Part shown: positions 16,432 through 31,539 of the stretch, piece by piece | Position numbering within the stretch: position 1 is the stretch's first letter | Layout: each line of letters begins with the position of its first letter | NCBI GenBank assembly: GCA_016219285.1 | Contig: JACRNJ010000075.1 | Span: forward strand, 1 to 33,109 | Reading direction: 5' to 3' | Length of the DNA stretch: 33,109 nucleotides | Origin: Deltaproteobacteria bacterium | GTDB taxonomy: Bacteria > Desulfobacterota > GWC2-55-46 > UBA9637 | Notes under the pieces: generated by a model | What the model saw: the letters and a program-made list of their open reading frames with translations, nothing else | Databases searched by the model: none | What the model was told of the DNA's origin: nothing | Position numbers and translations under genes: made by a program

Positions 16432-16940
16432 GATTTAAAGGCAAGGCGTGGAAGTTTAGTGCAGATATTGATACCGACCAGATTATACCTGCCAGATATT
16501 TAAATACCTCAGATCCAAAGGAACTGGCAAAACACTGCATGGAGGATGCTGACCCTGAGTTTGTAAACAAGATGAAGTCAGGTGATATTATTGTCGCGGA
16601 TAAAAACTTCGGCTGCGGCTCATCGAGAGAACATGCGCCAATTGCCATAAAGGCAGCTGGTATCTCATGCGTAATTGCAAAGAGTTTCGCCAGAATATTT
16701 TACCGTAATTCATTCAACATGGGGTTGCCGATATTGGAATGCCATGAGGCAGTGGACGCCATAAAAGAAGGTGATGAAGTAGAAGTAGATTTAAACAGTG
16801 GCGAGATTGTGGTTTTGAAATCCCAAATCTCAAATCTCAAATCTCAAATCTTCCATGCCCAGGCAATCCCTCCGTTTATGCAGGAGCTTATAAGTACCGG
16901 CGGGTTGATGGAATGGGTTAAAAAAAAAGGTAAAACATGA
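16428..16940 (+). CDS. leuD: 3-isopropylmalate dehydratase small subunit
   Basis: This 170-residue swivelling-domain subunit partners LeuC. Conserved parts are [18 protein letters not shown] near residue 11, [18 protein letters not shown] near 62 with the substrate-loop Arg, and [14 protein letters not shown]. Residues about 131-141 ([11 protein letters not shown]) are encoded by a 7-bp repeat in frame, just before the conserved PPFMQELI C-terminal helix. Family members of this type are usually about 160-168 residues. The start ATG 16428 overlaps the upstream stop and has GGGAGG before it. Confidence 0.96.
16819..16853 (+). repeat. 7-bp tandem repeat in frame inside leuD
   Basis: Units read AAATCCC, AAATCTC, AAATCTC, AAATCTC, AAATCTT. 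Only one arm is present. It encodes [11 protein letters not shown] in the loop between the swivel domain and the final helix. Confidence 0.88.
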
Positions 16941-16942
16941 AA

Positions 16943-17014
16943 TGGAGAATCGGAGAAATGGAGAATCGGAGAAAAATTCTTCTCCCATTCCCCGTTTCCC
17001 CCCATCTCCGTTTC
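16943..17014. repeat. 8-bp-period inverted array after leuD
   Basis: Left arm units GGAGAATC, GGAGAAAT, GGAGAATC, GGAGAAAA; right arm units TTCTCCCA, TTCCCCGT, TTCCCCCC, ATCTCCGT. The period is 8, not 7. The same octamer type occurs inside tgt. Confidence 0.88.
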
Positions 17015-21726: not shown

Positions 21727-23062
<1,336 letters not shown>

Positions 23063-23491: not shown

Positions 23492-24577
23492 TCATATTAT
23501 CATCATTGCATCGCCGTAGCTGAAGAATCTGTAACTTTGCTTTATGGCCTCTTGATAGGCTTTTTTTATGAAATCTTGCCCTGCAAGCGCTGATACAAGC
23601 ATCAGCAAGGTTGATTTAGGGAGATGAAAATTTGTTATCAGCGCATCTGCTGCATTAAATTTGTAGCCAGGATAGATAAACAGGTTTGTATAGCCGCTTA
23701 AAATCGGTTTTTCCCAGCCGCATCTTACAATCGCCTCCAATGTTTTTGCAACTGTTGAGCCAACAGCAATAATTCTCCTGTTTTCATGTTTTGCTTTTTT
23801 AATAGCTTTAAATGTAGCAGCAGCGACTTTATAATATTCTGGCTCCATTTTGTGTTTTGTTATATTTTCTGTTTTTACTGGTTTAAATGTGCCCAAACCA
23901 GTATGCAAGGTTATGTAAAAAATCTGCACCCCAAGTTCCTGAATCTTTTTTAAAAGCTCATCGGTAAAATGCAAGCCTGCGGTTGGGGCTGCAATTGCTC
24001 CTTTTTCTTTTGCAAAGACCGTTTGATATCTTTCTATGTCAAGTTCTTTGCTCCGTGCCCCTTGCCCCTTGCCCCTTTTTATATACGGAGGCAGAGGCAT
24101 TATTCCAATCTTTTCTATTGCCTTATCAATTTCAATTTCAGCATAAAGCTCTATAAGCCATTCGCCGTCGGTCATTCTTTCTGCAATCTTTGCCTTGAGT
24201 CCATGTTCAAAGATTATTTCCGCATTTTTTTTAAGACTTTTGGATGGATTTATCAGACAATTCCAGACTTCTGACTTCTGACCCTCGATAGAAGCATTCG
24301 AGGGCAGGCCTCGAACTTCTGACTTCTGTATTAACAGGACCTCTACTGCCCCGCCTGTTGTCTTATTTCCAAAGAGCCTTGCGGGGATAACCTTTGTATT
24401 GTTTAATACAAGAACATCTCCCGGTTTAAGATAGTCTGTCAATTCAGAAAAAACTTTATGTTCAACAGTCCCATCTTTCCTGTGGAGTATCATCAGTTTT
24501 GATTTATCTCGTCTCTCACAGGGAATCTGGGCGATAAGTTCTTTTGGGAGATGATAGTTGAAATCCTCAAGCCGCAT
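23492..24577 (-). CDS. queA: S-adenosylmethionine:tRNA ribosyltransferase-isomerase
   Basis: This 361-residue enzyme adds the cyclopentene part of queuosine, using SAM as ribosyl donor. It starts MRLEDFNYHLPKELIAQIP and has LVLNNTKVIPARLFG, GAIAAPTAGLHFTDELL, ITLHTGLGTFKPV and ALITNFHLPKSTLLMLVSAL. The family is usually near 340-350 residues. Two places carry extra residues encoded by repeats: about 84-104 (QKSEVRGLPSNASIEGQKSE) and about 167-178 (KGQGARSKEL). The start overlaps the stop of the upstream gene by one base (TAATG). Confidence 0.96.
   Translation of the reverse strand: MRLEDFNYHLPKELIAQIPCERRDKSKLMILHRKDGTVEHKVFSELTDYLKPGDVLVLNNTKVIPARLFGNKTTGGAVEVLLIQKSEVRGLPSNASIEGQKSEVWNCLINPSKSLKKNAEIIFEHGLKAKIAERMTDGEWLIELYAEIEIDKAIEKIGIMPLPPYIKRGKGQGARSKELDIERYQTVFAKEKGAIAAPTAGLHFTDELLKKIQELGVQIFYITLHTGLGTFKPVKTENITKHKMEPEYYKVAAATFKAIKKAKHENRRIIAVGSTVAKTLEAIVRCGWEKPILSGYTNLFIYPGYKFNAADALITNFHLPKSTLLMLVSALAGQDFIKKAYQEAIKQSYRFFSYGDAMMII
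24043..24080. repeat. 7-bp tandem repeat in frame inside queA
   Basis: In the gene sense units read AAGGGGC, AAGGGGC, AAGGGGC, ACGGAGC and encode KGQGARSK. Only one arm is present. Confidence 0.8.
24264..24328. repeat. composite repeat in frame inside queA (family A hairpin)
   Basis: A CCCTCGA/TCGAGGG hairpin with loop TAGAAGCAT (24282-24304) is flanked on both sides by doublets of the 7-bp unit CAGAAGT. The element encodes QKSEVRGLPSNASIEGQKSE. The same hairpin core and one CAGAAGT doublet recur in the ligand-binding protein gene (30429-30500). Confidence 0.85.
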
Positions 24578-27250: not shown

Positions 27251-27321
27251 GGATTTACGATTTACGAATTACGATTTAAAAGCAAAAACGTAAATCCAAA
27301 TCTAAAATCGTAAATCTAAAA
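27251..27321. repeat. 7-bp-period inverted array between hrcA and grpE
   Basis: Left arm units GGATTTA, CGATTTA, CGAATTA, CGATTTA; right arm repeats AATCTAA and AATCGTA types. Same subtype as the arrays between pssA, leuA, leuC and secD-secF. Confidence 0.92.
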
Positions 27322-27341
27322 TGATTTATTGGAGCAACCTA

Positions 27342-29222: not shown

Positions 29223-29229
29223 GAGGAGA

Positions 29230-29368
29230 CAGATGCAAGATGCAAGATGCAGGAAGCAGGAAGTTAGAAGCAAGAGGTTAGAAAAAAGCAGTCGGGGAAG
29301 ATATTGCCTCTTGATTCTTGCTTCTTGCCTCTTATTACTGATTGCTGGACATTGCTCACTACTCACTG
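29230..29368. repeat. 7-bp-period inverted array forming the 5' end of the ligand-binding protein gene
   Basis: Left arm units GATGCAA, GATGCAA, GATGCAG, GAAGCAG, GAAGTTA, GAAGCAA, GAGGTTA; right arm units TTGCCTC, TTGATTC, TTGCTTC, TTGCCTC, then a decaying series to TGCTCAC and TACTCAC. The whole array is translated. Confidence 0.88.
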
Positions 29369-30651
29369 AAACAGCTTTTTCTGAGGAATTATCGTCACCA
29401 TCCGCCGCATCCGACCTTTCACACCAGACATTCAATATCGGGGTTGTCCTTCCCTTGAGCGGGAGATATGCTCACTTTGGCGAACAAGCATTAAAAGGGA
29501 TATTGCTTGCTGCAGATATATTTGAGTTAAGAAAACAATGGGTGGAAGGGGCAAAAGGACAAGATAATACCCAAATCATTAATGTAGAAATAATTATCAA
29601 GGACACCAAAGACGATCCGATTGCATCGGAAAAGGCCGTAGAAGAGCTAGCCTTAAGCGGAAATGTTGTAGGTGTAATAGGTCCGCTTTTGAGCATAACC
29701 GCAATAGATGGCGCAAAAAAGGCTCAAGAGTTAAAGGTGCCCACAATCACCCTCTCTCAGAAAGAAGGCCTTACCAATGCTGGCCAGTATATATTCAGAA
29801 ACTTTCTACTGCCATCTGAACAGGCAAAGACTATTGCCTCTTATGCAATAAACAAGTTAAACTATAAAAAGTTTGCCCTGCTTTACCCCAACAGCCCTTA
29901 CGGAATAGAGCTTGCCAATCTCTTTAAGCAAGAGGTTAAGAAAAACAATGGCGAGATAGCGGCTGAGGAACAATACAGAGAAGGGCAGACATATTTTGGG
30001 AAAGAGATAGTAAGGCTGTTTAAAATAAAGGAGACTGAAAAAAAGGAAGGCCGAAGAAAGATAAAAATATTTGAAACCGCTGTGGCAGTGGACGCCATTT
30101 ATATACCTGACTATTTTGATACCATCGGCCTCATAGCCCCTCACTTTGCTTATTATAATATCAAGGACATTAAGCTCATCGGGTCTAATGGGTGGAACTC
30201 TCCAAAACTTATAGAAATGGCAGGCAAATATGTAGAAGGCTCCATCTTTATAGACGGTTTCTTCTCAGGCAGTAAAAGAGACGCGACCTCTCAGTTTGTA
30301 AACAACTTCAGAAATCTCTACGATACAGAGCCAGGTATTATTGAAGCTCAAGCCTATGATGCGGTAAGGATGATGATAGAGGCTGTCAAAAAAAATCAGA
30401 AGCCTGCCCTTGAAGGTTTTAATCAAGGGGCAGAAGTCAGAAGCCTGCCCTTGACAGACGTTTCACCTGTCAAGGGCAGGCCCCCGAATGCTTCTATCGT
30501 GGATCATAGGGAAGATGTGAGGGTAAATCTTGCTAATTTGAGAGGCTTTCCTGGGGCAACTGGCAATATTACATTTGACAGTAATAGAGAGGCTGTGAAA
30601 ACCCCTTTTATACTTGAAATAAAAAAGGGGAAGATAGTGGAGGTAAAATAA
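29233..30651 (+). CDS. periplasmic ligand-binding protein (Peripla_BP_6 / LivK type)
   Basis: This 472-residue exported protein matches type I periplasmic binding proteins, as in branched-chain amino acid ABC transporters or LpoA-like regulators: NIGVVLPLSGRYAHFGEQALKGILLAAD at the start of the mature part, VVGVIGPLLSITAIDGAKKA, FALLYPNSPYGIELANLFKQE, and NITFDSNREAVKTPFILEIKKGK at the end. ATG 29233 follows GAGGAG. The signal peptide core (YCLLILASCLLLLIAGHCSLL) and the basic region before it are encoded by a repeat array. A second repeat block adds residues about 399-422 (AEVRSLPLTDVSPVKGRPPN and onward). No permease genes are adjacent, so a transport role is unproven. Confidence 0.88.
   Translation: MQDARCRKQEVRSKRLEKSSRGRYCLLILASCLLLLIAGHCSLLTETAFSEELSSPSAASDLSHQTFNIGVVLPLSGRYAHFGEQALKGILLAADIFELRKQWVEGAKGQDNTQIINVEIIIKDTKDDPIASEKAVEELALSGNVVGVIGPLLSITAIDGAKKAQELKVPTITLSQKEGLTNAGQYIFRNFLLPSEQAKTIASYAINKLNYKKFALLYPNSPYGIELANLFKQEVKKNNGEIAAEEQYREGQTYFGKEIVRLFKIKETEKKEGRRKIKIFETAVAVDAIYIPDYFDTIGLIAPHFAYYNIKDIKLIGSNGWNSPKLIEMAGKYVEGSIFIDGFFSGSKRDATSQFVNNFRNLYDTEPGIIEAQAYDAVRMMIEAVKKNQKPALEGFNQGAEVRSLPLTDVSPVKGRPPNASIVDHREDVRVNLANLRGFPGATGNITFDSNREAVKTPFILEIKKGKIVEVK
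30429..30500. repeat. composite repeat in frame inside ligand-binding protein gene (families B and A)
   Basis: A CAGAAGT doublet is followed by a perfect 14-bp stem (CCTGCCCTTGACAG, loop ACGTTTCAC, complement; 30444-30480) and then the family A core CGAATGCTTCTATCG (30485-30499). The block encodes AEVRSLPLTDVSPVKGRPPN and NASIVD. The stem and loop reappear inverted at 31493-31539. Confidence 0.88.
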
Positions 30652-30652
30652 C

Positions 30653-30710
30653 TTACGATTTTAGATTTACGATTTTAGATTTTAAATTCGTAAATCTAAA
30701 ATCGAAAATC
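30653..30710. repeat. 7-bp-period inverted array before moaC
   Basis: Units ACGATTT, TAGATTT, ACGATTT, TAGATTT, then TAAATTC, GTAAATC, TAAAATC, GAAAATC. It ends 5 bases before the moaC ATG, leaving no ribosome site. Confidence 0.93.
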
Positions 30711-31273: not shown

Positions 31274-31374
31274 CCAGTTTACCCCTCCCTCCGTAAAATA
31301 GCGATTGAAAAAATGGCTATTTTACAAACCTGCGATTTGACTGCCATGCTTCGTTGTCGGACAATTTTTACTCC

Positions 31375-31429
31375 CCACAACCCACCCCTTTAGTCCCCTC
31401 CAAGGAGGGGATAAAGGGGTGGGTTGTGG
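31375..31429. repeat. long near-perfect palindrome 1 after moaC
   Basis: CCACAACCCACCCCTTTA at 31375 pairs with the end of the element at 31429, with one bulged base; the centre is CCCCTCCAAGGAGGGG. The stem is about 26 bp. Confidence 0.85.
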
Positions 31430-31441
31430 CTCAGCGTAAAT

Positions 31442-31487
31442 AACACACCCTTTAGTCCCCTCTCGAGAGGGGATTTAGGGGTGTGTT
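31442..31487. repeat. long near-perfect palindrome 2 after moaC
   Basis: AACACACCC at the left pairs with GGGTGTGTT at the right; the centre is CCCCTCTCGAGAGGGG. It shares the TTTAGTCCCCTC core with palindrome 1, so the two are copies of one dispersed element with different outer arms. Confidence 0.85.
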
Positions 31488-31492
31488 GTCTG

Positions 31493-31539
31493 ACCTGCTT
31501 GCCCTTGACAGGTGAAACGTCTGTCAAGGGCAAGCAGGT
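31493..31539. repeat. perfect 19-bp hairpin with 9-nt loop, family B
   Basis: ACCTGCTTGCCCTTGACAG (31493-31511), loop GTGAAACGT, exact complement 31521-31539. The loop and inner stem are the reverse complement of the copy inside the ligand-binding protein gene. Confidence 0.9.

Follow-up and report, generated by a model that had tools for sequence, protein, structure and literature searches.

Direct repeats of the heptamer TAACTGA have been described in Beggiatoaceae, cyanobacteria and Bacteroidetes (PMC4679880). They consist of one unit and reside nearly all in intergenic DNA upstream of start codons; the few copies within ORFs encode the heptapeptide cycle LSVISYQ, and the term signal peptide is absent from that paper. 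The arrays studied here resemble these repeats in having 7-bp tandem units, in their many occurrences per genome and in their patchy distribution over lineages. However, while the TAACTGA repeats are direct, intergenic and built from a single unit, the present arrays contain many units, are inverted and are concentrated in signal-peptide DNA (103 of 386 elements lie at ORF 5′ ends). Other heptamer repeats are GGGAATC and GGGGA(C/T)T of Xanthomonas and Nostoc and, in Calothrix, heptanucleotide repeats (PMC4692102 and references therein); small mobile sequences are the subject of a review (PMC2229807). The Xanthomonas, Nostoc and Calothrix repeats share with our arrays that they are abundant heptamers, at times in inverted pairs, but they are rich in G, form quadruplexes and are under-represented in coding DNA, whereas the arrays reported here are densest in signal-peptide DNA.

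The palindromic elements of Rickettsia lie in frame within many genes; to our knowledge, each of their families has one consensus and none supplies signal peptides. Palindromic DNA in frame in genes was found here as well, including a nested palindrome in the gene of a ligand-binding protein. Instead of one consensus there are dozens of heptamer units, by which description the arrays are set apart, and they differ furthermore in that the site is kept while its sequence changes. PARCELs are palindromic coding repeats that form a 25-residue repeat domain in membrane-targeted proteins (PMC2996958). Both systems combine palindromic, coding repeat DNA with membrane-targeted proteins, but in PARCELs the membrane-targeting sequences are separate from the repeat domain, whereas our arrays encode the predicted targeting part itself. 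Tandem repeats of Borgs change fast, add protein sequence and are enriched in proteins with signal peptides (PMC9879509). Rapidly changing repeats that contribute protein sequence are thus common to both, but the repeats in Borg ORFs always have unit lengths divisible by three and add disordered regions, not targeting signals. In the open-licence literature, we found no report linking heptamer arrays to signal peptides.

The window, i.e. the whole stretch of DNA analysed (33,109 nucleotides), contains directly downstream of dnaJ a coding sequence (29233-30651, plus strand like all features of this gene given below) whose translation is a 472-aa precursor of a periplasmic ligand-binding protein. 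Pfam assigned residues 67-398 (29431-30426) to the Peripla_BP_6 domain (PF13458, E 2e-36). An earlier note on this DNA had described an inverted heptamer array at the beginning of the gene. Such an array was indeed present, spanning 29231-29333. It comprises a purine-rich left heptamer arm with AGATGCA and GCAGGAA units (29231-29263; 7-bp segment score 21; TRF) and a right heptamer segment (29309-29333; score 13). Two inverted arms of 25 nt each (29253-29277 on the left and the pyrimidine-rich 29307-29331 on the right) are 80% complementary to each other. Since the middle of the array (about 29278-29306) shows no periodicity and the three outermost AGATGCA units on the left have no clear counterpart on the right side, the inverted array has to be regarded as imperfect. 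To examine the DNA pattern itself, the same peptide was encoded by randomly drawn synonymous codons: nine of 5000 trials matched the observed 7-bp score, and none of 400 matched the inverted one. As random synonymous codons rarely reach these scores, the pattern exceeds what the peptide alone imposes on the DNA.

Translation gave the peptides quoted by the earlier note for both arms and the order of basic and hydrophobic parts that it had derived from them. The purine-rich left part encodes the basic n-region (residues 1-23 with nine K/R and three D/E; 29233-29301), and the pyrimidine-rich right part most of the uncharged hydrophobic h-region (residues 26-39, LLILASCLLLLIAG; 29308-29349). A c-region outside the array (29350-29382) follows and ends in the predicted A-x-A-like cleavage site AFS↓EE, which is kept in the N-termini of orthologues as AFA↓LE, VFA↓DE, AYS↓QE or AFS↓QE. 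With its positively charged n-region, its hydrophobic core and a conserved site 3′ of the latter, the n- and h-regions encoded by the window array belong to a predicted cleavable Sec-type signal peptide processed by signal peptidase I. The motif LASC, which had been taken for a possible lipobox, is located inside the hydrophobic core, is missing from most orthologues and is followed by the signal-peptidase-I-like site. A lipoprotein signal peptide (signal peptidase II) was therefore rejected, because the cysteine is neither situated at the end of the h-region nor conserved, and AFS, AFA, VFA or AYS sites follow in the family. Good terminal lipoboxes do occur in other array genes of this genome, such as TVFYGC. 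The C-terminal part of the ligand-binding protein gene harbors the above-mentioned nested palindromic insert (GCCTGCCCTTGA / TCAAGGGCAGGC; 30396-30490) in frame; the sister genome G004 has a short AGTCAG-type array there instead of the palindrome.

The array belongs to a family dispersed over the whole genome. Our survey covered 1.52 Mb of the 2.28-Mb genome (G000), about two thirds, and yielded 427 seven-base segments, whereas a Markov resample contained one, and any of the other periods between 4 and 12 gave 2-32. In this respect, i.e. tandem 7-bp units in many copies, the segments correspond to the TAACTGA repeats, and a unit of that type (AACTGAT/AGTTATC) is present among the dozens of different heptamers. 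After merging, the segments formed 386 elements, 191 of which were intergenic, 103 located at ORF 5′ ends, 86 intragenic and six at 3′ ends. Thus, of the earlier wording "non-coding repeat DNA", the repeat nature held true, but purely non-coding the family is not, as many arrays lie inside genes. In the window, further in-frame heptamer arrays were seen within genes at 1927-1959, 16818-16851 and 24049-24077, the last of them in an ORF resembling the tRNA ribosyltransferase-isomerase QueA. Arrays of 8-bp units, a length likewise no multiple of three, occurred on L216, L204 and L011 and in the window at 16944-16973 and 22480-22531; three of these 8-bp arrays were found in signal-peptide regions, namely of BamA in G004, of LolA in G006 and of the ligand-binding protein in G010. 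The window also contains a dispersed repeat, roughly 100-160 bp long (31333-31494), two further copies of which exist in G004 (L039:12044-12190 and L040:482-577).

To determine where the arrays accumulate, genes and signal peptides were called by simple home-made rules and not by SignalP or Prodigal, so that all starts are predicted ones. A 7-bp array in the first codons was detected in 47 of 213 predicted signal-peptide genes versus 14 of 872 others (odds ratio 17, p 1.4e-23), and the periods 5, 6, 8, 9 and 10 gave nothing comparable. The number of segments per kb was 3.04 for signal-peptide DNA, 0.66 for intergenic DNA, 0.59 for open DNA preceding genes and 0.10 for coding cores; arrays covered 13.6%, 2.8%, 3.0% and 0.38% of the bases, respectively. 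Because a cytosolic gene preceded by an array could pass for a signal-peptide gene and render the result circular, Pfam was run on the rest of each protein. By our own count, 28 of 49 scanned array genes fell into envelope families: BamA, TolB, LolA and LolA-like proteins, LptA, LptE, SurA, FlgI, FlgA, secretin, PilP, PilW, BamB-like proteins, TolC-type OEP, OmpA, solute-binding proteins, M23 peptidase, SCO1, multicopper oxidase and others. The remaining ones were mostly neutral (TPR, thioredoxin-like) or without a Pfam match, and there was one clear false call among the listed array genes, a phosphatidylserine decarboxylase. The expectation of the earlier note that other exported proteins of the genome would show the same array-encoded pattern was thus borne out. 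Within coding DNA, the arrays occur preferentially in signal peptides, and dozens of envelope proteins in this uncultured bacterial group have predicted export tags encoded by short inverted heptamer arrays.

These densities bear on a neutral explanation, according to which arrays form or insert without preference for any location and, among coding sites, the N-termini of exported proteins simply tolerate them best; an array would then add to or replace residues of the n- and h-regions with no advantage from its presence. Signal peptides have loose sequence requirements, and arrays are plentiful in intergenic DNA and also reside in frame within other genes, all of which would agree with mere tolerance. 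Yet a density in signal-peptide DNA not above that of intergenic DNA would then be expected, whereas the observed one is about five times higher, unless array formation itself is biased to such sites, which is possible. Open DNA upstream of genes generally lacks a comparable excess, too. We consider neutral tolerance a possible but somewhat improbable account. The same data speak against a hairpin in RNA or DNA close to the start codon, acting as terminator, attenuator or in translation control, with the peptide as a by-product. The arms of the window array are able to pair (fold of -34 kcal/mol), and intergenic arrays are found at conserved positions, as such an element might be. However, the fold is barely better than that of dinucleotide shuffles (z -1.34), and hairpins should occur at the 5′ ends of any gene class, whereas the excess is restricted to signal-peptide genes; an Rfam search of the window gave no match. 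In view of the z value, an RNA hairpin as the main function was dropped, and we regard the hairpin explanation as a whole as improbable.

To see what happened to the arrays in relatives, which are uncultured "Deltaproteobacteria bacterium" metagenome assemblies, orthologue N-termini of four exported proteins were compared. For the ligand-binding protein, the signal region contained an array in all 11 examined genomes of the order (with an 8-bp unit in G010 and weakly in G009) but in none of five examined orthologues outside the order, which have an ordinary signal peptide. The units within the order differed, among others ATGCAAG/TTGCCTC, AGTTATC/CTGTTCA, GGGCTAT/CGCCTAT, AGGCTGA/AGCCTTC, GACATTA and the 8-bp GGGGTCAA, while the cleavage region (AFS↓EE, AFA↓LE, VFA↓DE) and the binding domain were conserved. 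None of the orthologues had the same signal sequence without the repeat, a finding that would have contradicted the earlier note. Its suggestion of a de novo origin or replacement of a targeting signal has to be divided: replacement is supported, but de novo gain of targeting was discarded, since relatives outside the order already carry ordinary signal peptides ahead of the Peripla_BP_6 domain. As moreover the cleavage region lies outside the array, the n- and h-regions were apparently replaced and no new targeting arose. In the orthologues from outside the order (L012, L013, L018, L025, L028), about 100 extra residues lie between signal peptide and binding domain; this N-terminal stretch is absent in the order, where the array-type signal peptide directly precedes the binding domain.

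TolB possesses an ordinary signal peptide in most relatives. Strong arrays were found only in G000 and G004 and differ from each other: the DNA of the mature part is 98% identical, that of the signal only 64%, a value close to that of shuffled sequence (61%). A site-by-site comparison was carried out in part, with G004 as the one sister genome. Both flanks of 25 array sites of G000 could be located there, and just one site was empty. At ten orthologous signal-peptide sites, the region of G004 was repeat-built in every case, three times with the same array and seven times with different heptamers (six by an automatic rule and one, L141, by eye), although the mature proteins were 81-98% identical. 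Inverted intergenic arrays also differed between the two genomes, such as those upstream of moaC (30653-30710) and grpE (27252-27322), where the site comparison disclosed a different sequence in G004. Direct arrays inside other genes were mostly retained.

Nine of the ten G004 proteins at the shared sites were called as signal peptides; for the tenth (L160:16966) the automatic comparison yielded no N-terminus that could be judged. This matters for the assumption that translation starts downstream of the arrays, which would then be 5′ untranslated DNA that is open by chance. Several possible starts do exist in some genes, and the n-regions of array signal peptides are long (median of 29 aa versus 12 aa in other signal peptides), which might conceal a start within or downstream of the array in some genes. 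But in nine of ten sister pairs the region stayed open and signal-like despite the exchange of arrays, and with a downstream start BamA, TolB, LolA, FlgI and others would lose their signal peptide. In the window, a Shine-Dalgarno-like AGGAG (29224-29228) precedes the ATG at 29233 by 4 nt and lies outside the array, so that the predicted start is upstream of the array; a downstream start would have contradicted the earlier note. We judge a downstream start to be very improbable.

On a wider scale, other families of the class, sampled with eleven stretches of 20 kb, showed one 7-bp segment in total, whereas most genomes of the order had several per sample. The AGTCAGA unit is scattered patchily over distant families of the phylum, with matches in 15 of 297 genomes. 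It is multicopy in a few distant genomes (G303 with 47 matches, G252, G178, G163) and absent from most others. In one distant genome with AGTCAGA, the peptide encoded by an array reads like the signal of a lipoprotein (L230). Because of this array and of the occurrence of AGTCAGA in distant families, the use of arrays as predicted signal peptides may have arisen more than once.

Why should such arrays read as export signals? Strongly polar inverted arrays were purine-first in 14 of 14 intergenic and in nine of ten signal-peptide cases. As the intergenic ones have the same polarity, the arm order is a property of the elements and not an outcome of selection at signal peptides, and we dropped it as proof of selection. 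The codons of a purine-rich arm would yield K, R, E and Q, and its complement L, F, S, A and C. Since by the genetic code the complements of K/R/E codons are L/F/S codons, a purine-first inverted repeat reads basic and then hydrophobic, and owing to the palindromic structure this order is kept on either strand. Furthermore, because seven is no multiple of three, a heptamer array devoid of stops is translated into one and the same cycle of seven residues in all frames. Of the six frames of the window array, the majority are basic and then hydrophobic, including frames on the opposite strand, but several of the six contain a stop. Frame-independence is limited to stop-free units, and the window array contains stops in some other frames. 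Stop-free unit pairs made up 144 of 159 in signal peptides versus 196 of 432 in intergenic DNA, an excess that is partly definitional for DNA within open frames.

Taken together, palindromic structure, complementary codons and the 7-bp unit would make the arrays tolerable at the starts of exported proteins. In the reading we favor, an inverted heptamer array of the genome-wide family would come to sit at the 5′ end of a gene and supply n- and h-regions; cells apparently retain it there, where the sequence requirement is loose, and arrays would be swapped repeatedly while cleavage region and mature protein remain constant. On the basis of the sequence comparisons, we think it highly probable that a genome-wide array family encodes predicted Sec-type n- and h-regions and is tolerated and swapped at exported-protein starts. 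We infer that the array-encoded peptide probably directs export, and selection for export presumably keeps the arrays at signal peptides. A farther-reaching model, a dispersed cassette system in which a dedicated copying or exchange process repeatedly replaces the inverted arrays of fixed sites by unrelated ones, and in which the palindromic, purine-first 7-base design lets many cassettes read as a signal peptide in any frame or strand, is tentative and in our opinion rather unlikely.

The source of new signal peptides has seldom been observed, although signal peptides themselves are highly variable. Here, repeat DNA would supply the predicted targeting part of essential envelope proteins, and its replacement is visible between close relatives, so that a protein part essential to envelope proteins would be repeatedly rewritten by repeat DNA. 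A coding region contains repeat arrays at a higher density than non-coding DNA does, and the exchange of arrays at fixed sites raises the question of the exchanging agent. The comparison with known heptamer and palindromic repeats, which in the case of the heptamers are mostly intergenic, suggests that, as far as the open-licence literature goes, the link of heptamer arrays with the making of signal peptides may be new. It may tie a feature of the genetic code, the opposite hydropathy of complementary codons, to the origin of a protein part.
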